The translations under genes were made by a program, and so were the position numbers. DNA of 64,000 nucleotides, from contig OZ038386.1 in the NCBI GenBank assembly GCA_964036045.1, forward strand, positions 14,295,433 to 14,359,432, written 5' to 3'. The notes beneath the pieces are model-generated. The model saw only the letters and a list, made by a program, of their open reading frames with translations, did no database searches and was not told the origin of the DNA. This document shows positions 31,798 to 60,613 of the stretch, one piece after another (position 1 is the stretch's first letter; each line of letters begins with the position of its first letter). This DNA comes from Eutreptiella sp. 'Long Island Sound 2002' (Eukaryota > Euglenozoa > Euglenophyceae > Eutreptiales > Eutreptiaceae).

Positions 31798-31829
31798 GAC
31801 CCTAACCCTAATCAAGACTGAATATTGGG

Positions 31830-33879: not shown

Positions 33880-34107
33880 GCGCAGCTGAAGTTCACCGTC
33901 ACCAAGCATCAGCCGCACGTGCACGAGACCACGGAACAGGCCGTCAGCCGCGACATGGAGTGGCTGGGGCTCTGGGGGAAGGATGTTACGGGCATTCCGC
34001 TCATGAGCGCGCGATATGCTGCGCCTTTTGCCAGAGCCTCGACGCCCGGGGAGGGCGTGAGGATGCTGTTCCGCACCGCTTGGGCAGAGGATCGTGAGGT
34101 CCGGCAG
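33880..34107 (+). CDS. Exon B1 of the alternating repeat gene
   Basis: Seventy-six codons between CATGTTGCAG and donor GTACGC. The usual HPALK start is reduced to AQLK and the linker is short. The core has SRDMEWLGLWGKDV, SARYAAPF, STPGEG and MLFRTAW. This is the first recognisable repeat exon; no A exon precedes it. The 2309-nt intron that follows holds a SINE at 34983-35211, two truncated element ends near 35590 and 36032, and a C run near 34797. Confidence 0.8.
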
Positions 34108-34982
34108 GTACGCACCGCTTCCCTAAGCCGACGCCCTGACATCTTGGCATTGGCCAGTGGTATCACCAGCTGTAAGGCCTTTTACGCGGGAGTTGAGGCG
34201 ATCCTGAGACTCACACGGACGACTGTCTGGGGCTCCGTAATCCACGGAGAGTTTCACACACCGGATGGCGGGGGGTTTGGGGGCTCTGCTGGATCACGAC
34301 ATGGAAATCCCACTCCGAATCCGTTTCTGTTTGGACTTCCAACAACGTCGTCTGAGACGTCTGGACACATTTGTGAAAACCCCAGACGATATCTTGGCTG
34401 AAGAAGCGCGACCTCTCACCAAGAATTGGCTGTAGAGGGCTATGAGCACAACCAAGTGCGGTCAAAAAGGAACCAATCGAATTCAGAGGGTCATTCGACC
34501 ACCGAGAACCCCTGGGCCACTGGGAAACACTAGGTCTGCTCTGCGACCACAACTCGGCACAAACCTGCTAAAGTTGCTGATTGTTGGGCCAAAAAAATGG
34601 CCGGCCATTGTTGAGTGTCTTGATTTGGGAACTGAAGTGGTGTGAGTATGGCAATCAATTACAAGCAACCGTTGCATGCTGAGACTGATCATCGACGAAA
34701 CTGACTTTCATCCTCTTTGCTTGTTGCTTCTTGTTGCTTGCTTGATAGGTGAACTATTAATTTGTTTGATGGACTGAAACAATTCATTCGTTTATTGCCC
34801 CCCCCCCCCCCTTCTTTCCACTTTCATTCTTTGACAACATCTTGAAATCAGAGTCGGCCAACTATCAAATTGGTACAATCGCCATCTCCGAATGCTGTGG
34901 GATATTGTTGACTGTAGAATTGTGTTACATCAGATTTTACAGCAATCTCCTTCACACACACAAGCTGAAGGGTATGGCCCTA

Positions 34983-35211
34983 TAGCGTGGGGTAAAGGTA
35001 AAGGTAAAGTGCTCGGGCGCTCTCCGAACTCCAGCGTAACCGTGATCCCTACCTGTCCCTCGCAGCATCCCTTCCGACTCGCGGGGTCACAGACACCCTA
35101 GCGCCTAGGATACTGCGTTCCGACCCCACCGGGATTCGAACCAAGCACCTCTAGTTCAGGCGGCACGCGCATGACCGCTGAACTACGCGACCTTCTTCCT
35201 GTAGCGTGGGG
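34983..35211 (-). mobile_element. tRNA-derived SINE with target-site duplication
   Basis: On the minus strand the element starts with a tRNA-like head: TAGTTCAGCGGTCATGCGC (D-arm, A box) and TTGGTTCGAATCCCGG (T-arm, B box), about 40 nt apart. The body is about 130 nt and the 3' end is (TTTACC)3 then CCACGC. The direct repeat TAGCGTGGGG flanks it (34983-34992 and 35202-35211), as expected from target-primed reverse transcription. It carries no protein and depends on a partner LINE in known families. Confidence 0.75.
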
Positions 35212-35589
35212 CTACTAAACCACCCGGGCAGTGCACATCACAAAACATTTGATTTGTGAGACTCATGCACGGGATGGCAGTGCCCCACACTTTGCCTGGG
35301 GCTACGGATTGTCAATTTGACTGAGACCCCCAATAGAGATAGCATGATGTGGCAGTGGCCATTGCACAGGCAATGACAGTTCGGTAGCATCTCAGTGTCT
35401 TTTTGGCATCCTGGCCTTTCGTTCTGCTAGCCCGCCCCACCCCCTTTTAGGAACAATATGTTTTTTTTGTTAAGGACCCCCCTTAAGGACCCCCCCCAAG
35501 GGCCTTTTTCCCAGGTCCGACGCCGGCCAACCCTAACCCTACCCCTACCCCTACTCTAGGTCCCAACTCTAACCAAGATTGAATATTGG

Positions 35590-36060
35590 ACCGAGCTGGT
35601 GGGGGAAGGAACATGGTCTAGGAGACTTCAATGACAATTGAGGTACACACTGGAAAGTGGATGAGAGCGGCTCAAAAGGGGCTCAAAATGAGCTGTATTC
35701 ATCCGTTTGGGCACCACAACTGGACTAGGGTCATGTTCGGAAAATCATGGTTTTGACCCGTTTTTGAGCCATTTGTGGTCCCAAATTGGCCCATTTTCAA
35801 GGCCCTTTCGGCCTTGAGAGGGGCCAAAATTTCTCAACATGGGCTCAAAATGGGCTCATTCCACTTGTTTGTCACCCCAAAATCGTCCAAAGTATCTTTG
35901 GAAAAACACATTTTTGATCCATTTTTGACTGATTTTTGGTCCCAAACCAGCCCATTTTCAAGGCATTTTGGGATTTTGGAGTGGCCAAACCTAGACTGCA
36001 CCCCTCACTCTAATCAAGACTGAGTATGGGGACTGAGCTTGTGGGGGAGGGAATACCAGC
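35590..36060. repeat. Truncated and diverged copies of the 1.1-kb element
   Basis: ACCGAGCTGGTGG at 35590-35602 begins a copy with the TTTTTGA(C/G)CCATTT and CCCATTTTCAAGGCATTTTGGG interior words but no right end. A second, degenerate left end (ACTGAGCTTGTGG) is at 36032-36044. Both are preceded by TCTAA(C/T)CAAGA(C/T)TGA, and telomere-like CCAACCCTAACCCTACCCC lies at about 35528. Confidence 0.65.
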
Positions 36061-36416
36061 CACGGGGCTGAATAAGGATGCATGTAGAGGGACGCCAAAA
36101 ACGATTCCTCCCACTTCGACCATTATTCCACCATCAAAACCCTTCCTCACTCGCTTCGCTCGCTGGAGAGACATGCCCGCCAGCAATCCTCCCGCACCCC
36201 TCCCCTATCACCCCTCCCCCTGCAGTCCCCCTACACCCTACTTGTACTGTGGCTTCATAGTGCCACGCTCCATTGTAATTTGAGTTTTCGAAGATCTGGG
36301 ATGGGGACCGTTTGGTCCATGCTGGGGCAGCAGGTGGCACCCACCACCCAGCCTCCTGCCCTGTCTGGCCAAAAAGCCCACATGCCCCCTCTCATTGCTC
36401 ATTCCCCTCCCACCAG

Positions 36417-36518
36417 ACATTCATGGGAATCAAAATGGTGTTTGGCATCGCCTGCACGGAGCACATGACTTTCCCCGACATCGTCACTCGTCTATTGCTC
36501 GTAGCGAATGAAGACCAG
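36417..36518 (+). CDS. Exon A1 of the alternating repeat gene
   Basis: Thirty-four codons from CCCACCAG to donor GTCTGT. Reads TFMGIKMVFGIACTEH, then MTFPDIVTRLLLVANEDQ. Matches the A consensus at Gly4, Lys6, Phe9, Gly10, Cys13, Thr14, Glu15 and His16. The following 1110-nt intron contains members of the poly-C-associated family and a fold-back repeat. Confidence 0.88.
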
Positions 36519-36645
36519 GTCTGTGCCAGCCTTGCCCCCCCCCCCCCCCATCCCCCGTTCCAGTGGTGGTGATCACCCTCCAAACTCCACTGTCCTGGGA
36601 AAGACTTTGTGTGGAGCGTGCCGACGCCGCCATGGGAGGCACGTA

Positions 36646-36906
36646 AGGGGCAGAAGCAGCATTTGTGAGCAGCGGGACAAGTTTCCCACTCTCATCTCGG
36701 AATTTTCCCTCAGCTTTTAGGGGTAGCCGAGCAGGCTGCCCACCCCTCACAGGTTTTTTTTTTGAACCTACCCTCTTCACTCCCGACCCAATGGGTGGGC
36801 ACCCAACCAATCTATCCATGAGTGGACGATTCCCTCCTTAGCAGGCGAATACATACGCAAGTTCCAAACGGTATACTCTTTCAGCCTTTATCCCCCCCCC
36901 CCCCCC
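36646..36906 (+). repeat. Poly-C-associated dispersed family, most complete copy
   Basis: Left module GGGGCAGAAGCAGCATTTGTG at 36646 and TTTCCCACTCTCA; right module CCTACCCTCTTCACTCCCGACC, GATTCCCTCCT, CTTTCAGCCTTTATCCCC, ending in a C homopolymer at about 36890-36906. Partial relatives are at 22735, 25076, 26751 (minus) and 49715. Confidence 0.65.
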
Positions 36907-37296
36907 GCGCTCCAATGGGGTCACTCATGGAAGAGACGCCGAATGGTAGTGCCCGCTTTGGCGCCTTGACGTACCTCGTCGGCATGGGGGTGCGCGTGTG
37001 TCAATGCTTAAGATACGGTCGCCTTCAAGGTACAGCCGGTGTAGCCCATCATATTGAGTTGGTACGTCGCAGCGGGCGGTCTGCTGCACATCTCTTTACG
37101 TGTTCTTTGCGCGTCAGCTGCGATGCGTCAGGTTCCATGTGCTCAGGTCCCGGCGTGCGTGTGCAAAGGCCCCTTGAGGTTGGTTCCCTGGGCTTGAAGC
37201 GGTGCTTGTGGTCTTGTCTATCACAAACATTTCCCAATTTTCGCACCCAAAAGCGCTGTTGTTTGAAACAATGTATTTGGGTCCCCCCCCCTCCTT

Positions 37297-37386
37297 TGCT
37301 CAAGCACTGCCTTGTCCAGGCACGAGAGTCCGTCTGACCGTCGTGTTCCTGACTTTTAGCGTGCTTGCGCAAGGGGGTGGGTACTG
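37297..37386 (+). repeat. Fold-back repeat family, copy in the A1-B2 intron
   Basis: GCTCAAGCACTGCCTTGTCC at the left and GTGCTTGCGCAAGGGGG at the right are imperfect inverted arms around GTCTGACCGTC. A C run precedes it, as in the copy at 15905. Confidence 0.6.
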
Positions 37387-37628
37387 TATTTGGGTACACC
37401 TGTGGCGGTGCAATCGCCCAGTTTCCGTTTCCCACCGCTGACATTGCTTTGCAACATGCGGCCTCGCCAACCACCAGGTCGGATTTGCAGGGACTGACAA
37501 ACTTGACCCGTTGTGCAACATGCAGTTGATCCATGTGACCATCCTTCTCTGCCCTGTCCCACTGCCAGTGCCGTTCGCAAGGAACCGCTCCTCCGCAGGC
37601 CCATGCCCCACGTCACTTTCTTGATCAG

Positions 37629-37859
37629 GAGGAGGAGCACCCGGCGTTGAAGGAGGAGGAGTTCACGTACGCGACGCCCAAGGTCAAGCAAACCGAAGAG
37701 CAGGCCGTGCGGCATGACATGGCGTGGCTGGGGCTGTGCCGGGACGATTTGGTCACCATCCCGTGCCTCGGCGCGCGGTACACGCCGCCCTTCGTCAGGC
37801 CGGAGACCCCAGGCACGGCGCTCCGACTGCTCTTCCGCACGGCTCAAGATCAAGGCGCG
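37629..37859 (+). CDS. Exon B2 of the alternating repeat gene (degenerate core)
   Basis: Seventy-seven codons after CTTGATCAG, opening EEEHPALKEEEF. The core reads RHDMAWLGLCRDDL where others have WGKDV, and after LLFRTA it ends QDQGA at donor GTATGC. About five of the usual final residues are thus missing. Phase is kept. This is the most diverged B core and may be losing function. The following 1937-nt intron contains the perfect inverted repeat. Confidence 0.75.
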
Positions 37860-37899
37860 GTATGCCGTGCCCCAGGGCCGCGCTCGAACAGGGGTAGAA

Positions 37900-38112
37900 C
37901 CCCCAACGGCCCACCAACCACTTTGTAACCGCCAGACCTTGCACCCCAACCGCGTTTCCAACCTCTGAATGCCGCTTTGCCAACCACTTTCCAAAAATTC
38001 CCTCCAGCCCCCCTGAAGTGCATTCCTGGTTGGGTGTCCAGCCTGCAATGGTGCTGTTCTGCCAACAGCAGCGGCACACCTGGAAACACAGGCCGGCCAA
38101 AATGAGACACTC
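37900..38112 (+). repeat. Perfect 213-bp inverted repeat, left arm
   Basis: Its reverse complement is identical, base for base, to 38490-38702. The arms are separated by 377 bp, and both lie inside the intron between B2 and A2. Confidence 0.97.
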
Positions 38113-38308
38113 GGGGTGATGGTCAGCCCTGCAATGCGTCTGTCCGCCCCCCCTACAACCCCTCACAACCCCCGGGTTGCATCCCCCAGTACCTGCTTTG
38201 TGGCGGCTTTTCCAACCGCCAATGACTGCGCTGGCGACCACTCGTGAAACCTCCCTGCACGCCCCCAAACTCGCTCAGCTCTTATGCCCCCCACCGCCGG
38301 TACGCGGT

Positions 38309-38427
38309 GTCCACTTGGATGCACCTGGCCAACGGCGATGGCAGTTGCCCTTCTCTGTTGAGGTAAGGGTAGGCCAGGCCGGGAGAGGGAGGGCACAAGG
38401 TGGCGAGAGGCCAATAGGCGCCGCGAG
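38309..38427 (+). repeat. Dispersed repeat family (GCGAGAGGCCAATAGG), copy in hairpin loop
   Basis: TTGGATGCACCTGGCCAACGGC and GTGGCGAGAGGCCAATAGGC match 15248-15420. It lies in the loop between the inverted arms. Confidence 0.6.
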
Positions 38428-38489
38428 CTGCAGACAGCAACACAACCAGGCATCGTGCCAGGCCGCCCCCTCCTGCAAGCACATCCCGG

Positions 38490-38702
38490 GAGTGTCTCAT
38501 TTTGGCCGGCCTGTGTTTCCAGGTGTGCCGCTGCTGTTGGCAGAACAGCACCATTGCAGGCTGGACACCCAACCAGGAATGCACTTCAGGGGGGCTGGAG
38601 GGAATTTTTGGAAAGTGGTTGGCAAAGCGGCATTCAGAGGTTGGAAACGCGGTTGGGGTGCAAGGTCTGGCGGTTACAAAGTGGTTGGTGGGCCGTTGGG
38701 GG
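38490..38702 (-). repeat. Perfect 213-bp inverted repeat, right arm
   Basis: Identical inverted partner of 37900-38112. Absence of any difference between the arms points to a very recent inverted duplication or gene conversion. Confidence 0.97.
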
Positions 38703-39796
38703 CGGGCAGAAGAAGGCCCCTTGTGATCTTCTTTGCTGCGTTGCCTGTGCCTCGGTGACTTGCGTTGGCATGTACGTTTGCTGCACATAGCGGCACCGGG
38801 GCTCCCCCCCCCCCCCCCCGCCTTTCCCGCTCCCACAGTCTTGCCCCTGGGCCCTCGTCAGGAGATGTGTGCATTGCGTCCCCTGCGTGCCCTTCATCGA
38901 GTTGCATTCGCCGTGCCGGCCGGACTCGCAGACACGCATGGGGGCGTATTGCTGGCGTCGGATGTCGGCTGGCGTCGGGGCACTGGCCCTACAGTCCGGA
39001 GGCACGCCTCCACAAAGCACGTCCCAAGTGCTTTGAACCGGAAATGTCCACCGGCAACCCAGCTCCACCTTTTTGATGGTTCACCTCCCGGGCCGGTTGC
39101 CCGAGCTTTTTCATGGGGGCGTGGGGCTGCTTCTGTACCCACTGGTCATACGCCAGACATGGCACTGGACACCGGTGGTCCCACACGGTGCTCTACCAGC
39201 CTTTGGAACCCCCGCCAGTGGTAAGTCCGCCCACCTTCTGCGCATCTCGTGTAGCGGGCGGCTTGTAGAACTGAGCTCCATGCGGCCATTCACACACCGC
39301 GGCATACAGTGGGAGGGGGGGTTCCGCGGCGCGAATTTTTGCTGTAGCATGTTTCGTGTTTCAAATTCATGCCAAATTTCCCACAATTTTCAGGCCGCTG
39401 TGCGAAACAAAATGGTATCGAAATTGAGCAAAATTGCTTGTCGTACAGTTGCTTTTGCCACACGCTCAGCATTGGCAGACGGGTTACAGTCAAATTCTGT
39501 GGGTATGAAGCCTCTCGCCATTGATTCATCCCTGTGTTGCACAGTTGTCCATTCTTCTTCAACTGTTTATGGCAGCCCGAACGTTTGCAAACGCAGGCTC
39601 ACAGTAGGTGGGTGCGAAATTTCCCACGGCAAATTCTGGTCTGCATGCAAAATAAACCCGCGTTAAAATTTTCTCGCACGAAACCCCCCCCCCCCCCCCG
39701 CTGTATGGTGTGGTGCCCGAGAGGACAGACGCATTGCCCCTTTATGGCCCAGGCCTCTTTGGTTCCTGTGCTGAACGGCTGCTTTGCTGTCCACAG

Positions 39797-39898
39797 AGAG
39801 TGAAGGGGCTCTGCACAGTGGTTGGGATTGCGTGCACCGAGCATTTGGCATTCGATGAGATTGTGACCCGGCTCCTCCTGGCAATGACGGACGGACAG
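39797..39898 (+). CDS. Exon A2 of the alternating repeat gene
   Basis: Thirty-four codons from CTGTCCACAG to donor GTTTGC. Reads RVKGLCTVVGIACTEH, then LAFDEIVTRLLLAMTDGQ. Deviations from the consensus are Cys for Lys at position 6 and Val for Phe at position 9. Only 130 nt of intron separate it from B3. Confidence 0.87.
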
Positions 39899-40028
39899 GT
39901 TTGCCCCTCTGCTCTTGCAACACGTGTTGAGGCCAGACCCCCGTCCGGTGTTCCTCGGGCACCAAAGGGGCTGATTGGTTGCTTCCGCCAGCCCTCCCCA
40001 GCCCTTACTTCGGGGCGTTTGTGCTCAG

Positions 40029-40280
40029 GATGACGACGATCTACATCCCGCCTTGAAGCCCGCGGAGCCCACAAGTCCAGTGTCGGAGCCCACAGCGCAC
40101 GTGCCCCGAACGCAGGACCAGGCCATCAGCCATGACATGGAGCATCTTGGGCTTTGGGGGAAGGACGTGGACACGATCCCCCTCATCCGCACAAGATACG
40201 TGCTGCCCTTCCAAAAGCCTTTCACACCGGGCAATGGCGTCCGATTGTTGTTTTGCACAGAAGACCGTGCGGTCCGCAAG
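40029..40280 (+). CDS. Exon B3 of the alternating repeat gene
   Basis: Eighty-four codons after TGTGCTCAG, starting DDDDLHPALK. The linker is Pro/Thr/Ser-rich; the core has SHDMEHLGLWGKDV, RTRYVLPF, FTPGNG and LLFC. Three codons around the usual AWA are absent in frame before EDRAVRK and donor GTATGG. The 1801-nt intron downstream contains a telomere-like CA/CCCTAA-rich stretch near 41518-41600 and a C run near 41971. Confidence 0.87.
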
Positions 40281-41517
40281 GTATGGATCGCTTGCTAATG
40301 TTGTGTGAGCTTCCACCCTCCATCCTTTACCAGGGGCATTGCTCGGAGGGGTTGGGTGGCCTCGGCCGCATACGGATTCGCTGCAGTCAGCGCGAGAACC
40401 AGGCCTTGGGTTTGGCTTGATGGGACAAGTAGACAGGGACAGGATGCCTGGCCCAACACGGACCTCTGTACCCCGAAGTTTTCAATCTTCTTAGCAATGT
40501 CACCCCTGGCCTTTGGCATCTACGTGCATCTGATGCTGGCCCCATTTGTCTATTCTTCGCAAGACCCATGACAACTGGTGGCGGTGCCATCAGGGATATG
40601 AAGGCTTCGAAAACATCAAGTGCTTGAACAAAGGAGGTCAACCCTCCGGGTTTAGCAGCATCAGCCAGACCTGCCACTGAAAAGGCAGGGTCATCAGAAA
40701 GGCTGTATCATGTTGAATGCCCTCATTTTCACCAGTATGGGGGCCCACCACCACTGCTGCTGGTATGGACGGTGGCTGCCTCATGGCAATCATCCACAAC
40801 AGCCCCATCCTCATATCTGGCCGCTTCAACATCCGCGCACTAATAGGAGCGGTCACGAACATTGGGCAATTTTTTCTGAAAACAGATGGGGTATTTTGTC
40901 CTTCGCACAAAACGTTTTGGCTGCTTTGTCTTCCTGTGATCCTGTGGTCCAATTTGATGCCGTGCAGTCAATGGATGGGACATACCCCCCTGCCCCCTTC
41001 CCCCACAGGAACATGCGCGTGTTCTGACCTCTGTGCGCTCCGGTGTTGGATGACTGTTCTTGTTGCTTGTTGCTGACCCCTAGTGCAGTGCACCCAGCCT
41101 CAGGTCTCTTGGGTCAGCAGGTACCAGTCATCAAGGCAAACCAGAAGGAAAACTTTTTTCAGGGAGCAGCTGATGGGGGTGGGGTGGGGTGTACCCAAGG
41201 GTAGCAAGAGAAGCTGGCTGTTCAGAACCAGAGCCTCCTTGAGGGAACACAAAATTTTCTTTGCTTCTTTTAGCTACATAAAAGAAACGTCCTTGCCACA
41301 CGGACGTTTCCCCTGGCCAACGTTTTACTGCCCGGCGTGCCAATGCTTTGCATGCACCCCCACCACCCCCACATACATGGCTCTATGGCATTCCCTGGAT
41401 ACCTCCTGTTGCACCCCCTGAGAAGGACTTGTTGCAGACGAGCAGCAAACGCACACTGGGATGACACCACAAGGCCATTTGCTCACACTGGACGCTCACA
41501 GAGTCCCCGCTTTCCCT

Positions 41518-41600
41518 GCAAACCCCAAGCACAAACCCTAACCACAAACCCCTAAACACAAACCCCAAACACAAACCCCAAACACAAAGCCCACACGCAA
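41518..41600. repeat. AACCCCAAACACA-type tandem array
   Basis: About five irregular 12-14 bp units built on ACAAACCCC(A/T)A, including ACCCTAACC. It resembles degenerate telomeric sequence within an intron. Confidence 0.75.
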
Positions 41601-42081
41601 CCACAATCGCAAGTCCCAACAGCGGTTGGCCACCAGCACTGCCACCCATCACCCCCAACTGCCGCAAAATCACCCCCGCCAGCTTGTAGTGCTTGGTTCA
41701 CAGGGACTTTTGGCGGATCTGCAGGTGCAGTGGCTGGGTCTGTGAGGGTTGCCTGGGGGTTGACATGACGGCTGGGCTGCTGTGCAAGCCTCTCCCCCAT
41801 ATAAGAGCGCACAGTCACTGACTTAGATTTCAAGAAGGCCGTGAACCGGCGCGAAAGTCAGTGCTAAGGTCGGCGGCAGAATGGGCGCTCAAATTGGCGG
41901 TCAAAAGTTGCCTTCTGCCACTGTTGCGTCACGTGCCTGGCATGTCTAAGCCCGTCCCTCATTCTTTCTGGACCCCCCCCCCCCCATTCACCATAAACCC
42001 CTGGTGCATAAGCCCCTGGACAGCCTCCACATTCCAGCCTCCGGGCGTGCCCCACCACTTGAACTGCGCTTTGTCCAACAG

Positions 42082-42180
42082 ACGTTCTTGGGCCTCAAGA
42101 CCATATTTGGCGTGGCCTGCACTGAGCACATGTCGTTCCCCGAAATCGTCAAACGCATGTTGGATGCCAATCCCGAGGAG
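42082..42180 (+). CDS. Exon A3 of the alternating repeat gene
   Basis: Thirty-three codons from GTCCAACAG to donor GTGTGT. Reads TFLGLKTIFGVACTEH, then MSFPEIVKRMLDANPEE. The final Gln seen in many A exons is absent. The 1511-nt intron that follows holds a direct repeat of GGCTTGTCCAAAC(A/G)C at 42410 and 42687 with an inverted partner GTTTGGACAAGG near 42758, plus a C run. Confidence 0.88.
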
Positions 42181-42409
42181 GTGTGTGTGTTGCAGTGGTC
42201 CGCTTCGGAAGGAGGCACCCGTTGGTGCCACTCCGGTCGCTGATCTGTGTTGCCCCTTTCGTACCCGGAGCTGACACTTGGGAGACAAAATTCATTGCAT
42301 TCAGTGGCATCTGGCCTTTCGCAGAAAGGGCTCGCGACAGTTGCTGGAGTGTGCTTTTCTGTGTGGATGGGTGTTTGGGGGGAGAATGCCCCCCCCCTTT
42401 GTCCTAAGG

Positions 42410-42772
42410 CGGCTTGTCCAAACACAGCGACCTCGTGTTTCCGCACTTTTGGGTTCTTTTTGGAACTATGGGTTTTGCCGGTCCAATCCAACAGAGAATG
42501 TTGTTTGTAGCTTCGTGAAGGCCGCAGGATGGGTCAATATGCGTGACAAGGTGTTGGTGTAGGTGTAATTCCACGTGCTCTTGCGTTCTGGGGTGTGCGC
42601 TGGCCTGTTGCTTTGTGTTGTCATTTTTTGAGGGACAGGGTTGGCTTATGTCTGCAACATGTGTTCCGTGGTACGTGCCACGCGGTAACAAGGGCTTGTC
42701 CAAACGCGGCGACCCTGTGTTTCTGCAGTTTGCCCCCTGAAACAGAACCTGGCCCATGTTTGGACAAGGGGT
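42410..42772. repeat. CTTGTCCAAAC direct and inverted repeats
   Basis: GGCTTGTCCAAACACAGCGA and the following GTGTTTCCGCA recur with few changes about 277 bp downstream; the complement GTTTGGACAAGG follows. The words resemble the CCTTGTC(C/T)AAGCAC arms of the fold-back family, so these may be distant members. Confidence 0.5.
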
Positions 42773-43691: not shown

Positions 43692-43940
43692 GAGGACCTG
43701 CATCCGGCATTGATGAAGCAGCCCACCATCGTGTACGACGAGCCTGTGTTGACAATGCGTGAGACACACGAGATGGCCATCAGCAACGACATGAACTGGC
43801 TGGGGCTGTGGGGCAACGACGTCAACGTCATTCCCGGCATCAAAGCGCGATACTCTTCGCCGTTTGCGAAACCCTCGACCCCGGGGCACGGGATCCGCCT
43901 ACTGTTCTGCACCGCGTGGGAAGACCGTGCCAAGCGCCAG
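43692..43940 (+). CDS. Exon B4 of the alternating repeat gene
   Basis: Eighty-three codons after CATCACAG, starting EDLHPALMKQ. The core has SNDMNWLGLWGNDV, KARYSSPF, STPGHG, LLFCTAW and EDRAKRQ at donor GTCTGG. The linker has no strong bias. A 415-nt intron follows, with a long C tract close to the A4 acceptor. Confidence 0.88.
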
Positions 43941-44355: not shown

Positions 44356-44454
44356 TCTTTCAAGGGGATCAAGACGGTGTTCGGCATCGCCTGCACACAG
44401 CACATCTCCTTCCCTGAGATTGTCACACGGCTGCTGTTGGACTCGAACGAAGAG
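44356..44454 (+). CDS. Exon A4 of the alternating repeat gene
   Basis: Thirty-three codons from CTTTGCAG to donor GTGTGT. Reads SFKGIKTVFGIACTQH, then ISFPEIVTRLLLDSNEE. Gln replaces the Glu of CTEH. The next intron is the longest between repeat exons (4834 nt) and carries a C tract near 44735, dispersed repeats, a tRNA-like pair, a minisatellite and a decayed zinc-finger frame. Confidence 0.88.
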
Positions 44455-46236: not shown

Positions 46237-46507
46237 TTGCTTGCCCTTATGGTGGGTTTCCTCCCCACTGCTTGGAGCCGAGTCTGCCACTGACAAAAAA
46301 CCCAAACTGTGTGTTTCTGTTTGCTTGCCTGCTTGCCTGAATGACTTTCTGACCGCTGGTCTGGCTAACTAACTGATTGGCTGACTATCAGCCTCTATTC
46401 GAGGTGCACTGCCGAAGGCAATAGAATTTTTTTCGTGATATTTTTTTGGGCTGCACATCCAAAGTTGTGTCCTTGCCCCCAATGCAGCCACTTTTGATTT
46501 TGACCCC

Positions 46508-47150
46508 TTTGCTAAGGACCCCCGAGAACGTAGGGGTGACGTAGCAATTCCGCCCACTTGTGGGCCCCCGAGAAGGCAGGGGTGAGGTAGCCAATTCTGA
46601 TTCTATCCCCACTTTTGGGGACCCCCGAGAATGCAGGGGTTACGTAGCAATTCCGCCCACTTGTGGGCCCCCGAGAAGGGTGAGGCAATCACTTTTGATT
46701 TTCTCCCCTTTGTTGGGGACCCCGAGAATACACGGGTGACGTCGCAATGCCGCCCACTTTTGGGCCCCTGAGAAGGCAAGGCTGAGGTAGCCACTTCTGA
46801 TTTTCTCCCCTTTGTTGGGGACCCCTGAGAATGCAGGGGTGGCGCAGCAAAAAGTTCCGCCCACTTGTGGGCCCCCGAGAAGGCAGGGGTGAGGTAGCCA
46901 ATTCTGATATTCTCCCCACGCTTGGCGTCGGGGACCCCCGAGAACGCAGGGGTGACATAGCAATTCCGGGAGGGGTGACATAGCCATTCCACCCCCCCGA
47001 GAAGGCAGGGGTGAGGCAGCCATTCTGATTTTCTCCCCGTGCTTGGCGTTGGGGACCCCCGAGAATGCAAGGGTGACGTAGCAATTCCGCCCAGCAATTC
47101 CGCCCAATTGTGGGCCCCCGAGAAGGTAGGGGTGAGGCAGCCAATTCTGA
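46508..47150. repeat. Bipartite minisatellite, about six units of about 110 bp
   Basis: Two half-units alternate: GGGACCCCCGAGAA(T/C)GCAGG followed by GTGACGTAGCAATTCCGCCC, and GGGCCCCCGAGAAGGCAGGG followed by TGAGGTAGCC and TTCTGATT. About twelve half-units can be counted. Open frames of 150-200 codons on the minus strand here are a by-product of the repeat. Confidence 0.9.
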
Positions 47151-47509
47151 TGAGGATGCAGTCACGGTTGGGGCTATCTTTCTTGCAGTAGTGACCTTCA
47201 TATGGGGCTCGCAACGGACGTGTTCCGTGGGCACGTTTAGTTTTTCATGGTGCACCGTTGACAGTGCATGGGTTTATGGTACCTTTAAGGAGGCGGAACC
47301 TTTAAGGAGGCGCTTGCAACACGACATGCCATCCCCGTGACAGGTCAATTTTTGCCCTTTGTCGCAATGATCAGTGATCGGACCTTGTTGCCGTGGACGG
47401 GACAGTTTGGTCTGGAATGTGCGTTTCAGAATGGGCATGTGGTTTTTTTTTTATGCCCAAATGGATGCCTCATTCCATTGGGCACCTTGTCTGTCTTTGT
47501 GAAAACTGC

Positions 47510-49288: not shown

Positions 49289-49627
49289 GAGGATCTTCAC
49301 CCGGCGCTCAAGCAGATCGAGGTCACGCCGCGGCGTACGACCAGTACTGTGCTTAGTGATCCCGCTCCCAGTTTCGATATTGAGCCCCCCGAAGAAGAAG
49401 AAGAAGAAGAAGAAGAAGACCACGAAGAGTCGATCGACTTCGCACAACTTTTTGGGCTGACGGAGGAGCAGACAATCAGCACAGACATGGAGTGGCTGGG
49501 ATTGTGGGGGAAGGACGACGAGAGGGTACCACTCATGAAAGCGCGGTACGCGAAGCCCTTCACGAAGCCTCCGACTCCTGGCGAAGGCATGAGATTGCTG
49601 TTCCGGACGGCCTGGGCCAAGAGCAAG
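49289..49627 (+). CDS. Exon B5 of the alternating repeat gene, with poly-Glu
   Basis: One hundred thirteen codons after GTGTTTGCAG, starting EDLHPALKQIE. The long linker contains nine consecutive GAA codons (49391-49417, poly-Glu) and further acidic residues. The core has STDMEWLGLWGKDD, KARYAKPF, PTPGEG and LLFRTAW, and ends AKSK at donor GTGTGC. The 2354-nt intron after it holds a poly-C-associated repeat, an open frame at 50874 and several C/G tracts. Confidence 0.88.
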
Positions 49628-49714: not shown

Positions 49715-49872
49715 AGGCAGAAGCAGCTCTTGTGAGCAGAGGGACGACTGTCCCACTCTCACATACCAGAACTACTTGTCCCCGGTGGCTTGGGACAGCA
49801 ATGTAAACAATTTCCTCCTGAAAAACTCAAAACAGTGCGTCTACCCGTCAGCCCTCCCTTTACACCCCCCAT
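49715..49872 (+). repeat. Poly-C-associated dispersed family, copy in B5-A5 intron
   Basis: GGCAGAAGCAGCTCTTGTGAGCAGAGGGAC, ACTGTCCCACTCTCA and CCGGTGGCTTGGGACA match the copy at 25076. It ends CTTTACACCCCCC, a shortened version of the C-tract end. Confidence 0.6.
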
Positions 49873-51981: not shown

Positions 51982-52083
51982 GGCATCGAAGGGCTCAAAA
52001 CCGTGTTCGGCATCGCTTGCACGGAGCACCTGGATTTCCCCGAGATTGCTACCCGTCTGCTTGAGGTTCCAGATGAGGACCAG
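51982..52083 (+). CDS. Exon A5 of the alternating repeat gene
   Basis: Thirty-four codons from ATTTGACAG to donor GTTTGT. Reads GIEGLKTVFGIACTEH, then LDFPEIATRLLEVPDEDQ. Close to consensus. A 485-nt intron follows, with a stretch of ATGTTGATG-type repeats (about 52180-52300) that reads as Val/Asp-rich codons but has no other coding sign. Confidence 0.88.
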
Positions 52084-52568
52084 GTTTGTCCGCTGTTGCT
52101 GTGAACTGTAGAGCGTCGGTTTGTGTGTGTCATCTTGATGGATGTGTCCTGTGTGTGGATGCCTTTGTGTGTGGACGGCGATGCTCATGTTGGTGCTCAT
52201 GTTGACGTTGATGCCAATGGTGAAGCCAATGCTGATGTTGATCTCAATGCCAACATTGATGGGCTGGTTGATTACGATGATGATGCTGCTGCTGCGGATG
52301 TTCATTGTTTTTGGTGTTGCGCAATGCTGACAGTAGGACTCCCACTGCCTGCGCCATTCAGAAGACAGTAATATGGACAACAGCAATAACACTGAAACTG
52401 TCAGGAACAGCAAACGTGCGAAAGCATCGCCAACATGACTATGGCAGTGAAGGTTCGTGCCCGCGTCCGCATCAACGCGCCACAAGCACGACATCAATGC
52501 CAGCACAGCAGCGGTCCTGCGCGTGTTCACGGTGGTGCTGGATGTGTGTCGCGCCTCCTGCTTCACAG

Positions 52569-52808
52569 ACGGAGGATGAACACCACCCGGCGCTGATGGA
52601 GATGCTCCCAAGCACTGAGAAGGTGTATGGGACGCAGGAGCAGGCCATCAGCCGCGATATGGACCGGCTGGGGCTGTGGGGCAAGGACGTGGACAACATC
52701 CCGTACGTGCGCGTGCGATACATGCTGCCCTACGTCCAGCCGTCCACCCCGGGGGACGCCTTCAGAATACTGTTCCGCACGGCGTGGGCAGACCGTGCCG
52801 TCCGTGAG
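52569..52808 (+). CDS. Exon B6 of the alternating repeat gene
   Basis: Eighty codons after CTTCACAG, starting TEDEHHPALMEM, with a short linker. The core has SRDMDRLGLWGKDV, RVRYMLPY, STPGDA and ILFRTAW, then ADRAVRE at donor GTCTGC. The 1389-nt intron holds a sequence near 52955-53060 with GGGTTCATATCCC, a possible B box, and a (GCGC/CACA)-rich tract near 53570-53630. Confidence 0.9.
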
Positions 52809-54197
52809 GTCTGCATTATTGACGCTTTGAATTAGTCAGTCAGTGAGTTTGCACGGAGTTAACACGCCCTTGAGCCCCGTAAGTTCGTTGTTCTGGTCGC
52901 TGAGTGACCGTGGGCCTCGGTGGTCATTTCGGGACCATGGCTGTTCTTCGTGGAGCGTACTGTTAGCGCCGTGGGAAGTCTCAAGAAGCCCCACCACCTT
53001 ATTAGGAAGACCCGGGTTCATATCCCAGCTTCAGCACCGTTTGGCAGGGAGAGGCTCGGATGCCTCACGGTTGTTTTTCCGTAATGAGGGAGCCCCTTGG
53101 TGTGGACCTGCGCAAACTGGACCCTCAGCCGACCTTTTCCTCGGGCTGCGTCCGCTCAATTGAGCCGACCTTTGCCTGTTCACGATGGAAAACTGCTGCG
53201 CAAATTTGCCTATATGACATTTTTCGAGACAACAGTTTTTCCACACTGAATTCCCCACTCTGTGCCTGTGCGTTGAGCGACCTGGGCCCTCAAGGTCCTA
53301 TCAATGTCCCACCCGTCTGCAGTTGGGATGCATGCCGCACGTGCCCCCCTGCCTGTGTCCTCTGTTCACCGGTGGTGTGGATCCCACGCTGCTGCCACAG
53401 CACAACTGACAGATGCAGCCCTAAGTTCTAAGGCGCCAGGGTGCGCTTGGTGGCCCTGCCACCCGGAAGGGCCAAACAATCGCTCGCTGGTGCCTGGCGA
53501 GCGCCCCGTCCAATCCCCCGCACAAGGCGTCCACTTGCGGCAAGGCCTGTTGGGAACACACGTACGCACACAGACGCGCGCGCGCGCGCACCCACGCCCA
53601 CGCACACGTGCACGCACGCGCACACACAAGGAGTTCAGACGCATGATATGGCATTTGTCTGGTGTGGAAGTACTGGCAGAGAATGTGGTCAAGAATGTTT
53701 CTGTGCCCCCTCTGCTGAGCCATGGGAGGGCTTCTGCAAAAAGGACCCGGGGATTGGGCCTCTCTGGGATGAATTGCAAGCGCGCGGTGCATGAAGGATG
53801 TTTTTCTAAGGGTCCTTGCACCCGAGAGCAACCAACAAGCACAGAGTCCCACCCAAGGGGAGGTAGCTTGAGGGAGTCAGCTCTCTTCTGGGCCTGACAG
53901 CAGACGTTCATCACGCACTCTGTGCCAATGCAACTGCCGCCGGTATGGGGCAGGCTTCAGTCACCCAAGGACGAGGCCAAAGGATGAGGACAAGTTGGTT
54001 GCTCTCTGGGGTTCACTCCACGTCACAAAGATACGGAGCAGAATCGATCGGGTCATATTTCGTGACGCTTTGGAGAGGCTCTCAGCAGCACTGGCATTGG
54101 CACACGGCGGTAGCATTCTGGTATTTGTGTGCGACGGGTTGCCTGCCTGCCCACTGGCCCGAGTCTCACTCTATTTTTGGTTGATTGCTCTCAACAG

Positions 54198-54296
54198 AGT
54201 TACATGGGCATCAAAACGGTATTCGGAATCGCCTGCACTGAACATCTTGCGTGGCCTGGCATCGTTACCCGATTGCTGACCACAGACGAGGAACAG
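54198..54296 (+). CDS. Exon A6 of the alternating repeat gene
   Basis: Thirty-three codons from CTCAACAG to donor GTGTGC. Reads SYMGIKTVFGIACTEH, then LAWPGIVTRLLTTDEEQ. Trp and Gly replace the usual Phe and Glu in FPEI. A 128-nt intron leads to B7. Confidence 0.9.
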
Positions 54297-54424
54297 GTGT
54301 GCATGTTCTTGCGTCTGGTCCTCTTTTCCTGAGTTTGAAATTGTTTGCTGCTGGTGTTACGTCCGCACCCATCCCGTTGCACACGTGCGAACGTCTTTGG
54401 GACACACTCCCTCTACTTTTGCAG

Positions 54425-54772
54425 GATATGCATCCGGCCCTGAAGTCCCTCGTCGCAGTGCCTGCGAGGCGGGTCCACATCCGCTACATGGATTCCACAG
54501 ACGAAGAGGTAGAGCCTCGGCCAATGCACGAGCCCCAGGTCCGAACGACCCCCCCAGTGCTCATGAGCCCCAACAGCCGCCGGCAGATGATGGAGCACGC
54601 CATCAGCGTTGACATGGAGTGGCTGGGGCTGTGGGGCAAGGATCTGAAGCGGATCCCGTACATAAGGGCACGATATGAGATGCCCTTTGAAAGGCCCAGT
54701 ACCCCGGGCAACGGGTTTCGGACACTGTTCCGCGCCGCGTGGAGGGACGCCGGAGACCGGGCCGCACGGAAG
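54425..54772 (+). CDS. Exon B7 of the alternating repeat gene
   Basis: One hundred sixteen codons after CTTTTGCAG, starting DMHPALKSL. The linker is long and mixed, with MDSTDEEVEPRP and a Pro/Ser segment. The core has SVDMEWLGLWGKDL, RARYEMPF, STPGNG and LFRAAW, then DAGDRAARK at donor GTCTGT (two extra residues). The 1630-nt intron starts with two long G tracts near 54805-54834 and has a C tract near 55917. Confidence 0.9.
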
Positions 54773-56402
54773 GTCTGTGCAGTGCTGCTGGGGGGCATGT
54801 TGCGGGGGGGGGGGGGGGGGAGGGGGGGGGGGGGGGCAATGGGGTTGGGTTGCTCTTGATGTGGGCCCAGGGGACGGGACTTCTTTGGGGGGGGGGCGGA
54901 TCTGGTTCCACTGATTTGGGGCTCAGGTCCATGTTGCATTCCCAAACGACGATTTAACTTTTTTTTTTGCCACCACCGAGACAGGGGGGGGTGGCACTCT
55001 CACTGTCCGGGTCACTTCGGTCAGCGAAGGGAGGGTCCGTTGGCGGGGGGCGGGGGGCGGGGGGCAGGGGGTTGGGGGTCCTAGTAGGGGCAGGTTACAT
55101 GTACCAGACAACCGAATGGGGGCGGGGTACATATAGAGTGGGAGTGGGTGTGTTGGCTATTTTTCGAATACAGCGGTGAATCTGTTGGCGGCTCGGGACG
55201 TTGTTGCACAAGTACGGCTTGATCAGAATGTGTAAGGTCTGCGTCTGCAAGCGACCATCTGTGTTAACCACCACACAGGACGGGCCCCTCTGGGGCTAAG
55301 ACAAGAGCAAAGAACTGTCCACGCATGGTACACTGCTTTATTGACTGAGCATGCAAATCAAACTAACCGGGGATGCAGCACCGTTTGCGTTGCTGTGGGG
55401 GGCATTGCTATGCATTGCTTCGCCCTCATGTGCATCGCGGTGGTGTGCCCCACCGGGTACACCGTTGTGGGATCATGCACAGTCCATCCCCAGCAGAAGA
55501 GGGGTCGTCTCAAAAAAATCGTGGCAACAAATTCGGGTGATTCGCGGAGGATTTGCCTGATCCCGTCAGGAATGGCCCCCTTCTGGTCCGAGGGGCAACA
55601 CCCCCTTCACACGGGGTTTGCTGAGGTGTGGCCTGATGCTGATCATTGGCAAATAGACCAGCGGCACGGCAGCTGATCCTGCTGCGCCACTGATGGACTG
55701 GCACCTCCTGGCCCCGAGTGGACGTGATGCAGCCATCCCGTTGTTGTGCCAGGCGAAGTGGCCTTTTCACGGGCGTAAGACAGTGGGCGGGCGGGCTAAT
55801 TTATCAAAGAGTGGCGCGACCACCAACGGCACGAGGAAATTCATTCAGCCGGGAACCGCATCACAGTGCAAAGGATTTGCCACTCGTATGCCTGCATCTG
55901 CACGCGATACATGTGACCCCCCCCCCCCCCGGTTTTCGTCTGGTTGTCTGGTAAATATAAACCCCCTTGTCGGTGTTGTCTAACCAATTTTTGTGACTGC
56001 ACCGGCACTTGAAACAGATCATCTACGCACCCCGGCTGAACCTGCAGTCACTCTGTATAGTCACGCAGTGCAGTCCCTCTGTAAGGTCATTTTGCCAGAC
56101 CCCAGTACCATGCAAGAGCCAGTTCAAGGCAAAAGGTGCCCGTGAGCGTCCCAGAGAAAGGCACACAATGCAATTGCACAGCACCCTCTATTTTCTAAGC
56201 CTTGAACCTGCGCTGCAAAGCCGTGTGATTGATCCATTGGTCAGTGCGCAAGCGTAGTTTTGCATTTGCCCATATCTCGGGGGTGGGAGGTTGAGGTCCG
56301 CAATTTTCCGCAATTTTTCCGCAATTGGATTCGACCCCCCAGACCGCAATCCCCCCCCCCCCCCGATATCTGTTGCGTTGACTTGTATTTTCATGTACAC
56401 AG

Positions 56403-56504
56403 ACTCTCGTGGGGCTCAAGCACGTATTCGGAATGGCCTGTACCAAGCACCTGCCGCTACGTGACATGTGCACCCATTTACTAATGGCACTGGAGGAAGA
56501 GGAG
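56403..56504 (+). CDS. Exon A7 of the alternating repeat gene (most diverged A)
   Basis: Thirty-four codons from TGTACACAG to donor GTCTGC. Reads TLVGLKHVFGMACTKH, then LPLRDMCTHLLMALEEEE. CTEH is CTKH and FPEIVTRLL is LRDMCTHLL. The 760-nt intron after it contains short imperfect GAGGTTGGG(C/G)TTGGG-type repeats near 56560-56620. Confidence 0.85.
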
Positions 56505-57264
56505 GTCTGCTCAGTGTTGGTGTTGTGTTTGAACATGGAATTGGCTTCGGGATTGGGTCGGGGTTGAGGTTGGGGCTGCGCTTGAGTTTGAGGTGAGGTT
56601 GGGCTTGGGCTTGGGCTGGGCCCCGCTTTAGCGGTTGAGGGGGAACCGCCGGCGTTTGGTGGGCAATCGACAACTGTTGGTGGCGGACCACCGGCAGCTG
56701 ACGTCCCAAATGCCGTGGACCCGAGCTGCTTCCTTTGGTTTTGTCAGTGGTAGTCCTGCGGTGGCTTTGTGCTTTTGGGATCCTGGTTCATAGGCAGGAT
56801 TGAGCTGGGCAAGGGAGGGCGACTACTGGGGGGCAGTCCCCCTCCCCGACGAGTCCTATTCGCACCAGAGCCACAGGAACGAAGCAAAGGCCATGCAGGC
56901 CCTGGCCACGAGACACGACCAGACACAAAACAGTCGTGGCCAGTGAATTTACAGTGCTCACTCGATGAGCGAGGCACTGACTGCCCACCAGAGTGTAGCA
57001 TGGCGTCATGCTGGCCTTCTTGGGCACAAAGAACATCCCATACTCAAACCGCAACCCACGTCCCACACCGCTCCCCTATCCCCTCTTCAGGGGTGTGGAC
57101 TTACTGGATCGCCTGCCCCCGAGTTTTGTCAGTGCCGGACATCCACGTGGAACACCGCGTTTCCACCTCAACACCAGTGAACCAGAGGCTGCACACACAG
57201 GGCTTTTCATTTGTGGCTTTGCCCCCTGCCCTTGCCACTGTCATTTGCAATGTCCGCTATGCAG

Positions 57265-57546
57265 GAACACCCGGCGCTGAAGCGCGTAGAACCCGAGCCC
57301 GAGCCAACGGAGTCCCTGTTTGTGGGGATGCTGAAGGCGCACTCATTCCATGAGCCAGTGCACGTGACGCCCGACCAGGCCATCAGCCAGGACATGGATC
57401 GGCTGGGGCTCTGGGGGAAGGACGTGGATGACATCATGGGCATGGCCGCGCGGTACGCGATTCCCTTCGGACGGCCTTGCACTCCGGGTGAGGGGGTGCG
57501 ACTGCTTTTCCGCACTGCCTGGGCTGAGGATCGTTCCGTCCGCAAG
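57265..57546 (+). CDS. Exon B8 of the alternating repeat gene
   Basis: Ninety-four codons after CGCTATGCAG, starting EHPALKRVEPEPEPTE. The core has SQDMDRLGLWGKDV, AARYAIPF, CTPGEG and LLFRTAW, then AEDRSVRK at donor GTACGG. The following 247-nt intron is half filled by a pentanucleotide array. Confidence 0.9.
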
Positions 57547-57595
57547 GTACGGGTCCCCTCTTAGGGACTTAGATTGGCGTCACTGGCACTGTATT

Positions 57596-57720
57596 GTGTT
57601 GTGTTGTGTTGTGTTGTGTTGTGTTGTGTTGTGTTGTGTTGTGTTGTGTTGTGTTGTGTTGTGTTGTGTTGTGTTGTGTTGTGTTGTGTTGTGTTGTGTT
57701 GTGTTGTGTTGTGTTGTGTT
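57596..57720. repeat. (GTGTT)25 pentanucleotide array
   Basis: Twenty-five perfect GTGTT units, 125 of the 247 nt of the B8-A8 intron, starting 49 nt after the donor and ending 73 nt before exon A8. Confidence 0.98.
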
Positions 57721-57793
57721 GCCTGCTACTTTGCCACACTCCCATGTCACTCTGCTGCACTCTGCCACGATCGCCCACTTCACTCTTACACAG

Positions 57794-57892
57794 AAGTTCT
57801 CCGGGATCAAGACCATTTTCGGAGTGGCCTGCACCGAACACCTGACGTTACCGGAGATCGTTGGACGCCTGTTCGACGCGCCCGAGGAACAG
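57794..57892 (+). CDS. Exon A8 of the alternating repeat gene
   Basis: Thirty-three codons from CTTACACAG to donor GTGTGT. Reads KFSGIKTIFGVACTEH, then LTLPEIVGRLFDAPEEQ. The 1392-nt intron that follows shows no clear repeat or exon on inspection. Confidence 0.9.
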
Positions 57893-59284
57893 GTGTGTAC
57901 GTGAATGCAAGTGTTGATTTGCTGAAGGTCCCTGTTTGCCTCCAGACGCAGTCTCCTGCCTTGACTGCTGCAGGTCCAACACTTGGAAGTGCGTAGCCCG
58001 ATGGAGGGTTGTACCCCGCCCCATCTGCATGCCTTGATGGACACCCGCTCCCCTTGCATCTTGCATTGGGGAGGAGCACAGGCTGGATTCAGGAAATGGG
58101 GACAAGCAGAAAAGTTCGGCCAACCCGGCCAGCCCCAGGGCCAGACCGCAGCTCTCACGTCAGGGCATGCACACACCTGCACGTACTTGAGAGCGCAGGA
58201 AACAGGCTCTACTACAAGCGTTTTCTGGGTGTACAAGTACATTACATAGAGAGCGCATCTGGACACAGGTGCGCCCGCTTACAGAAAGAAAGGTTGCACA
58301 AGCGGCATCCATGGGTTCTAGGAGATTGTCATGTATCTGCACCTGCAGCAAAACAAACACAAACACGAATGTAGAGTAGTGCCCATTATTGGTGGTATAA
58401 GATTGGGACATGAACGACTCTCTAGCTGCCAAATCATCTGAAATGCACAATGAGGGCATGCTGTTCTCTGCCCAGTCTCCAAGACTTGGCCAATCCAACC
58501 AAGCACCATGTTCCCAATTTGTTTTGCATATCTATGTTGTGGCTCGCACCCCAAATAGGCATCAGAATAACAGTAGAACGACACCACAAGATTACAATCT
58601 CTGTTCTCCTCCTCTTTGATGTGACCAAACATTTGGCTGCGCCCGGGCACCTGGTATCACATTCTTAGGCACTAGGTAGCGAATGTGAGGATCATGGGCT
58701 GCACCCTATTTTGTGTGTCTATGCGCATGTTGTGTGTCTGTGCTGCATGACAGAAATCTGTTATTGTTGAAAATTGCTTCCAAGGGGGGTCGGTTTCTGT
58801 GTGAAAACAACAGCATGCTAGTTTTCAGAAACTAACCAACTTTTCCACTGCTCGCCTGGAGGTGTGTTTCCAAAAGAAGTGTCACTGTAAACTGGTGAAT
58901 GGCATTTCTAGTACTCTGTCGATTTTTGTTGCGCTTTTCTGTGTATAGCCATCCACAATCAGAGGTACAAAATATCCATGCTATTCTCTGTGGTGCACAG
59001 TGCGACAGTGAAATGGCAGTAAGGACACTAGTGAAGCAGCTGGCAAGCAATACATCCGGAAGCAGTGCCAAGCCAAAAAAGGCTGGTTTGAATGCGGATC
59101 GCCACGGGCTGCCTAAGCATGCGTAGTGTCCAACGAAACGGCCGAGTGGCAAGATTGACATTGCGGGGACCCCAACGGATATGGGGCTCTTGTACAACCT
59201 CCAAAAAAACCTCTGGCAATTGGTGTGTGGAAGGGAACGCTTCGCCATCCCACCCATCCCCCTTGCCCACGATTTCCTTCGCAG

Positions 59285-59680
59285 GAGAAGGCAATTCCCG
59301 GCTCGGCAGTGGACCCTGTCTCTAGCCCAAAGGCCCCGTGCCGCATGCTCACGCAATCCGCCCCCAAGCCGGGCCCGTTGCACGCCGAGCCCAGCCCCGC
59401 GGCCGCCGCGCCCCCTGATGCTCCACCAGCCGTGGAAATGGTCCGCAGGGAGCCGCCGCGGCCGGTGCAGCCCAAGCGGGGGCCACGCGTGTGCCGCGAG
59501 ACGGAGGAGCAGGCCATCAGCCACGACATGGAGCGGCTGGGGCTGTGGGGGAGGGACCTGGACGACGTTCCGTACGTCAGGGCGCGGTACGCAGCGCCGT
59601 TTGTCAAGCCGTCCACCCCCGGCAACGGCGTCAGGCTGTTGTTCCGTGTGGCATGGCTGCAGGATCGGGAGGCACGCCAG
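59285..59680 (+). CDS. Exon B9 of the alternating repeat gene (longest)
   Basis: One hundred thirty-two codons after CCTTCGCAG. It lacks the HPALK start and opens EKAIPGSAVDPVSS. The linker is long, Ala/Pro-rich and very GC-rich. The core has SHDMERLGLWGRDL, RARYAAPF, STPGNG and LLFRVAW, then LQDREARQ at donor GTCTGT. The intron has C tracts near 59786, 60137 and 60419. Confidence 0.9.
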
Positions 59681-60054
59681 GTCTGTCGGCCCCCAGATCC
59701 AATTGCAGATCCCCCGCTGGCGCCGGTGCTGCAGAGGCTGTGTGTGGCTAATACAAGGGGGGGGTTCTGAGATTGGTGCCGACCCCCCCCCCCCCCCCGG
59801 AATTTCTTGCTCAATCCAGGCCATTTCTTGCTCCCTGGGAACCCTTGCTCCCTGAGCCCCTGGCAGCTAACATTTTTCTTCTGTAGGGAGGTACTGGTGG
59901 TGAGGATCAGTCATCATGCTAGTGCGTATCCCACAAATCTCTGCTTCTGTATCCTGTGTGTCCCAAAGTATGATTTTGTGTATCCCCTGTGTATCCCAGG
60001 GACTGTGCAACTGTACACAAAGCACCAAAATTTGGGGGTGCTGAAAGGACCTCG

Positions 60055-60126
60055 AAGAGAGGTTGTTAGATCAAGTGCAGGCATGGGCGTCGTATACTCC
60101 TCCTTTTTGGCGTTCGCGCAGCATAG
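60055..60126 (+). repeat. Dispersed repeat (GAGAGGTTGTTAGATCAAG), copy 2
   Basis: Partner of 45796-45870, same orientation. Confidence 0.75.
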
Positions 60127-60341
60127 CCTTCATGCCCCCCCCCCCCCCCCGCACCCATGGCCTTGTGTGACATTCACGTTGCTGGTTGTGGTGAGCACCT
60201 CCCAGCCTGGGATCTTCATGATGACCGCATACCGGGCACTGATCAGGCCGTCAGGGGAGGACGCCATGGGCAGAAGCTGCATTCTGGATTCCCACCCGGG
60301 CAGGTGGATGCCCGCAGTAGTGCGGATGCCTGCTTGTCATA

Positions 60342-60382
60342 GCAGAAGGTTCAAGGGCGAGAGGCCAATAGGCGCCGCCACA
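60342..60382 (+). repeat. Dispersed repeat family (GCGAGAGGCCAATAGG), right-end fragment
   Basis: GGGCGAGAGGCCAATAGGCG matches the right ends at 15420 and 38427. AAGGCCTTGTGCCAAC and a C tract follow, a combination also seen near 27053. Confidence 0.6.
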
Positions 60383-60514
60383 GGCTAACAGAGCCAACCA
60401 CCAAGGCCTTGTGCCAACCCCCCCCCCCCCCCCCGGCGCGCCCCGACAACCGCAATGGGCCCTGTTTAGGGCACGGGGCCAGGCCTCACTTCACGCCCGC
60501 ACTTCCACAAACAG

Positions 60515-60613
60515 GCGTTCGTGGGGATCAAGACCATCTTTGGAATGGCCTGCACGGAACACATCTCCCTGTCCAACGTCGCGGCCCGTCTGCTGGACGC
60601 TGCTGAGGAACAG
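60515..60613 (+). CDS. Exon A9 of the alternating repeat gene (last clear repeat exon)
   Basis: Thirty-three codons from CACAAACAG to donor GTTTGT. Reads AFVGIKTIFGMACTEH, then ISLSNVAARLLDAAEEQ. The valid donor implies at least one more exon downstream. C tracts lie near 60698 and 60910 in the next intron. Confidence 0.9.

Follow-up and report, generated by a model that had tools for sequence, protein, structure and literature searches.

A nine-unit array of paired phase-0 exons in a Eutreptiella genome appears to encode tandem copies of an undescribed domain

Tandem duplication of symmetric exons is an already known gene architecture, one example being fibronectin, in which two exons encode each type III repeat. 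A different kind of repetitive chain has been reported from Euglena gracilis, where polyproteins composed of tandem units are split at linkers, eight RuBisCO small subunits being joined by decapeptides (PMC4938576). Here we analyze a stretch of 64,000 nucleotides (nt) from Eutreptiella sp. 'Long Island Sound 2002' (assembly GCA_964036045.1, contig OZ038386.1, positions 14,295,433 to 14,359,432; hereafter the window), which carries on its + strand, between positions 33880 and 60613, nine B exons that alternate strictly with nine A exons. With a probability of roughly 0.5, we read this array as one gene that arose as a two-exon module was duplicated in tandem, its product being a nine-copy chain of an undescribed domain and acting as a multivalent intracellular scaffold. 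The gene structure by itself, that of a cis-spliced nuclear gene, is very probable, whereas the scaffold role taken separately is tentative and falls somewhat short of even odds. Although the architecture is familiar, the domain itself appears to be new. The locus would represent a clean example of how a large protein can grow when a module of two exons is duplicated again and again; the domain that these exons encode had no counterpart elsewhere among the sequences searched, and the alga in question splices in unusual ways and tends to make polyproteins.

The exons were located by motif and reading-frame scans, and their borders were set from the alignment and the phase. The lengths of all 18 are divisible by 3, with phase 0 at both ends; the A exons measure 99 nt (five of the nine) or 102 nt (four of the nine), the B exons range from 228 to 396 nt, and B2, B3 and B5 have 3' ends shorter than those of the remaining B copies. 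The summed exons comprise 3,468 nt, or 1,156 codons, and are separated by 17 introns with a total length of 23,266 nt, the shortest of 128 and the longest of 4,834 nt. Read in their own frame, the exons contain no stop codon, whereas the two remaining forward frames have 31 and 29 stops and the reverse frames 8, 7 and 49. A B-exon profile run against the six frames of the window recovered the nine B exons with E values from 3.6e-40 to 2.7e-33, the next match being at E = 1.8, whereas the nine A exons rest on a loose pattern scan that gave one extra, unrelated match at 22474. These results bear out an earlier note on this DNA, made without database searches, which had described nine B-A pairs of phase-0 exons with the above lengths and B exons consisting of a variable linker and a constant core. 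The single symmetric phase that is a feature of tandem exon duplication is present in all 18 exons, and the array resembles fibronectin-like genes in its one exon phase, two-exon repeat and one intron within the domain; it differs from them in that its units match no Pfam family and its linkers vary in length more than threefold.

All 18 donors begin with GT and carry G at +5, and all 18 exons follow a CAG acceptor, including the first A exon, for which the earlier note had listed CCAG as an exception although this, too, ends in CAG; its GT donors stand throughout. At the +4 position of the donors (34107-60613), 16 have T, two have C and none has A. Because the pattern GTN[CT]G is shared by only 243 of the 1483 GTs within the same introns, the set of donors is far from random, although the 18 are not independent events, having been copied by duplication from few ancestors, with the introns after them no longer alike. 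The 26-nt E. gracilis spliced leader, in the form that we take to be its sequence, was found at 2,292 plus 2,415 places in the genome with at most one mismatch, compared to 0 for the reversed control, and the window contains 49 runs of at least 10 C and 14 of G. For the conventional introns of E. gracilis, the published 5' consensus is GTGTG (PMC11170887), so the idea that donors with T at +4 are new was dropped; the 3' end consists of a C-rich tract followed by CAG. Both the donors, GTN[T16/C2]G, and the CAG acceptors of the array agree with this consensus, which supports the exon model. One study reports having found no snRNP27 in E. gracilis (PMC10679874), and another identified 28,337 introns in this species (PMC11170887). 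An intron-rich species with +4U fits poorly with the view that links +4U to few introns, and E. gracilis may be an intron-rich exception.

The gaps between A2 and B3 and between A6 and B7 are only 130 and 128 nt long, respectively; a donor follows each A exon, and a phase-0 acceptor precedes each of B2 to B9. Since introns of this length leave no space for the end of one gene and the start of another, and every A exon has a donor, the array is best regarded as one gene, as had been proposed from the letters of the sequence, and by intron length at least two neighboring pairs must be joined to the next pair in a single predicted transcript. Nine separate two-exon genes would be a common product of gene duplication and would likewise give similar units in tandem on one strand, but the two short gaps, the donor after every A exon and the phase-0 acceptors before B2-B9 make this arrangement highly improbable. 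Because an in-frame ATG at 33871 directly precedes B1 and this exon is devoid of the HPAL motif found in most linkers (see below), B1 may be the first coding exon, in which case the 'acceptor' at 33880 is possibly unused; at the other end, the gene probably continues past A9, given that A9 ends in a donor.

The mean differences at codon positions 1, 2 and 3 are 0.31, 0.20 and 0.48 for the B exons and 0.34, 0.18 and 0.58 for the A exons, which fits purifying selection on the protein. The ratio of nonsynonymous to synonymous differences (pN/pS), calculated over 36 pairs each, is 0.46 for the B cores and 0.40 for the A exons, with 3 of the 36 and 8 of the 36 pairs, respectively, saturated at synonymous sites. 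A decaying relic that evolves without selection could account for the divergence of the repeats, among which B2 and A7 stand farthest from the other copies, but the 1,156 codons contain no stop or frameshift, positions 1 and 2 change on average less than position 3, and pN/pS is below 0.5, so that decay can be given very little credence. In a self-BLAST of the window, exons match exons, and the introns have just three short stretches in common (46, 75 and 84 nt). Because the exons remain alike and the introns do not, and given the codon-position and pN/pS values, the duplications look old and the protein appears to be selected; the units differ from one another at 32-48% of the B-core residues. 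All 18 exons being symmetric, with equivalent splice sites, any pair could be skipped in frame, as would be expected if the copies were options and the mRNAs differed in the number or choice of B-A pairs. Alternative splicing of this kind appears improbable to us, as no finding requires it (no search of the introns for control elements was made) and the introns are not alike over any extended stretch. The strict alternation of the exons argues that duplication proceeded by B-A pairs, and the growth by two-exon units that had been proposed earlier fits both this alternation and the uniform phase 0.

Sequence searches suggest that the domain is restricted to this locus. A search of the whole genome (2.28 Gb) with the core of B9 returned 12 matches, namely the nine B exons (E values from 3.5e-35 to 1.8e-11) and three others with E values from 1.4 to 9; the number of scored candidates was 13, and these counts are lower bounds. 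Against 5.8 billion proteins, the full spliced chain had no match at E ≤ 1e-3 among the best 7,999 candidates, and the alignment of the units gave 8 matches at E ≤ 1 among 1,758 candidates. Seven of these are present letter for letter in the window; the eighth, a protein from ENA, is identical to the window over the first 174 of its 205 residues, covering exon B7, and is therefore probably this locus as it appears in a different assembly. Searches with blocks of three units yielded 3 matches among the best 7,991 candidates, all within those 8. Scans of IMG/VR and GTDB with short peptide patterns returned 18 and 29 stretches, respectively, none of them a relative, and a tblastn search of phage records with exon B7 gave no match. 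Searches of Pfam, NCBIfam, PHROGs and PDB produced nothing significant for the units, in line with the failure of the earlier note to recognize any Pfam-type domain; the match to a known domain by profile that would have spoken against it was looked for in these libraries, and none was significant. When the nine members were scanned against Pfam at E ≤ 1 and E ≤ 10, only CTLH_Armc9 and P23-45_gp39_N appeared, in one member each at E values of 0.1-0.13, the HMMER filters dropping most matches above E = 0.1. Several candidate affinities were rejected as being at chance level for the members scanned: a known fold via Prp39 (E = 0.66-0.68) or a periplasmic binding protein (E = 0.54-1.1) and three PHROGs (E = 0.066-0.44); the Armc9 CTLH (E = 0.1-0.13) and phage gp39 (E = 0.13-0.22) affinities were likewise at chance level. 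No description of the domain was found in the literature listings examined, in searches that did not operate on sequence. Thus, the domain appears undescribed in the sense of being absent from the libraries searched, with no relative found outside the locus.

The domain consists of the core of the B exon (approximately T-x-E-Q-A-I-S to R-A-V-R-K) together with the A exon and amounts to about 92 residues (90-96 per unit). Its conserved part begins just ahead of the DMxxLGL motif in B, continues through A and includes 21 invariant columns, among them D-M, L-G-L, R-Y, T-P-G and A-C-T-x-H. The B-to-A intron falls inside the domain, and the A-to-B intron lies at the border between domain and linker. 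The variable 5' parts of B2-B9 constitute linkers of 21, 27, 24, 57, 21, 54, 34 and 72 residues, respectively; seven of the eight internal linkers start with an HPAL[KM] motif preceded by acidic residues. Each unit contains 1-4 cysteines, one of which is invariant, so there is no paired-cysteine pattern. Structure predictions were made with AlphaFold2 exon by exon, and for the A exon gave a hairpin of two helices (residues 5-15 and 19-28; predicted local distance difference test score, pLDDT, 77; predicted template modeling score, pTM, 0.41); with low to moderate confidence, the domain is predicted to be all-helical. The size of this predicted hairpin, 33-34 residues, fits that of HAT/TPR-type repeats, and Prp39 (pre-mRNA-processing factor 39, a HAT-repeat protein; PDB 6g70) was one of the two PDB chains listed by the unit profile up to E = 10, matching the A half (profile positions 82-117) at the chance-level value of E = 0.66. 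Unlike in HAT/TPR proteins, the A hairpins are set apart by a linker and a B core, giving beads rather than a continuous solenoid, and no helical-repeat model of Pfam matches.

The closest described chains in the same lineage are the RuBisCO small subunit (RBCS) and light-harvesting (LHCP) polyproteins of Euglena, which share with the array a long nuclear-encoded chain of similar tandem units with linkers (PMC4938576); tandem similar units in one spliced frame are common to both. If the array were to encode such a polyprotein, the nine units would be cleaved at the linkers into separate proteins of about 92 residues, and the presence of one motif in seven of the eight linkers, together with the E. 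gracilis precedent (PMC4938576), speaks for this possibility. However, the linkers of the array are 21-72 residues long and carry HPAL[KM], instead of being decapeptides, and none of the eight matches the pattern of the published decapeptide. Because the decapeptide test fails, we do not class the array with the RBCS/LHCP polyproteins. The units also match no Pfam family and differ from one another in their B cores (see above), and where the RBCS and LHCP chains have an N-terminal signal and plastid targeting, the array has no hydrophobic start, provided that the ATG at 33871 is the start codon. We consider cleavage into separate proteins to be improbable.

Returning to the multivalent scaffold, the symmetric phase-0 module would have been duplicated in tandem to give a single chain of nine domains that stays whole and remains in the cell, where the domains could engage multiple copies of a single partner at high avidity, with the HPAL[KM] motifs as a possible second, short docking site. 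With a simple hydropathy window, neither a hydrophobic N-terminus (counted from the ATG at 33871) nor a segment of membrane length was detected; because of this and of the single invariant cysteine per unit, an intracellular chain on flexible linkers fits the data, and we infer a single uncleaved product with an intracellular site. Several observations weigh against this reading or parts of it. No partner, location or homologue indicates a scaffold, the gene model derives from genomic sequence, and both ends of the gene are provisional. None of the 6 inner branches is supported in any of three maximum-likelihood trees (core plus A, A, B core), so the order of the duplications is unreadable, and the A and B distances are uncorrelated (Mantel r = 0.02, p = 0.43), as are those of A and the following B (r = -0.38, p = 0.90). 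The similarity of the units does not follow their position in the array, and the trees neither support nor refute a joint history of A and B. With respect to the fold, the AlphaFold2 model of the B exon is helical and of low confidence (pLDDT 63, pTM 0.26), the alignment shows no significant helical periodicity, and in one part of the B core a strand-like period has the higher score, for which reasons the fold cannot be considered established. A more specific version, namely a lineage-restricted, single-gene domain family that was amplified ninefold to become either a calmodulin-regulated scaffold, given the IQ-like motif downstream, or the first non-plastid polyprotein of the Euglena type, with HPAL[KM] as a processing mark, seems unlikely.

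Downstream of A9, the next candidate exon (Table 1) has a codon score of 26.4, which falls among the values of the B exons, the score having been trained on the 18 exons plus the GH65 frame described below and therefore serving as evidence for downstream candidates only. Its reading as a tenth B exon is not supported and was rejected, as 317 of 3000 shuffles scored at least as high with the B profile and 105 of 3000 did so with the A profile. More candidate coding stretches on the same strand lie beyond the window, at ~L001:229, L001:2379, L001:5724-6293 and L002:9777. The stretch at L001:5724 contains an IQ-like motif: the regular expression had 8 matches in 357,187 six-frame residues, 2 of them in this stretch, and is a pattern match only, as a Pfam search of the stretch gave no IQ match. 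We infer that these candidate exons, including the one with the IQ-like motif, could be part of the same gene.

Table 1. Positions of the array exons and adjoining candidate features in the window
Feature	Position	Strand	Remarks
Possible start codon (MLQAQLKF...), same frame as B1	33871..33873	+	open frame from 33775; codon-usage segment from 33868
Exon B1 (or part of first coding exon)	33880..34107	+	
Exon A1	36417..36518	+	
Exon B2	37629..37859	+	
Exon A2	39797..39898	+	
Exon B3	40029..40280	+	130 nt past A2
Exon A3	42082..42180	+	
Exon B4	43692..43940	+	
Exon A4	44356..44454	+	
Exon B5, acidic linker	49289..49627	+	
Exon A5	51982..52083	+	
Exon B6	52569..52808	+	
Exon A6	54198..54296	+	
Exon B7	54425..54772	+	128 nt past A6
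Exon A7	56403..56504	+	
Exon B8	57265..57546	+	
Exon A8	57794..57892	+	
Exon B9, longest linker, no HPAL motif	59285..59680	+	
Exon A9, donor at end (CAG/GTTTGT)	60515..60613	+	
Candidate next exon	62033..62236	+	CAG acceptor in phase 0; 3' border provisional; does not convincingly resemble B or A

Two of the introns contain repeats of their own: intron 3 includes a perfect inverted repeat of 213 bp (37900-38112 and 38490-38702), perhaps a recent event, and intron 8, the longest, a tandem repeat of ~103 nt (46489-47151). Upstream of the array, positions 31015-31811 and 32042-32884 are 90% identical duplicates that flank a gap of 200 N and may be an assembly duplicate. Farther downstream, the spacing of repeated frames reveals a ~12-kb array with a period of ~178 nt (L001:6583 to ~L002:8978), and two candidate exons on the same strand, with no Pfam match, are located ~50 kb from the window (L007:251-418 and L007:4125-4598).

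Elsewhere in the window, a long open frame on the + strand (5576-8989) encodes a beta-phosphoglucomutase-like HAD domain fused to a GH65 sugar phosphorylase, of which the N-terminal, central and C-terminal domains are all present; its NCBIfam matches are below the curated cut-offs, and the product is plausibly a trehalose or related disaccharide phosphorylase. Another + strand frame (27469-28167), without a Pfam match, contains two KKSVSFS motifs, which resemble the docking motif of phosphatase-1. The frame at 14053-14517 on the - strand, also without a Pfam match, is retroelement-endonuclease-like by eye, and among several long open frames at ~L011 to L013, one is by eye similar to a retroelement polymerase.

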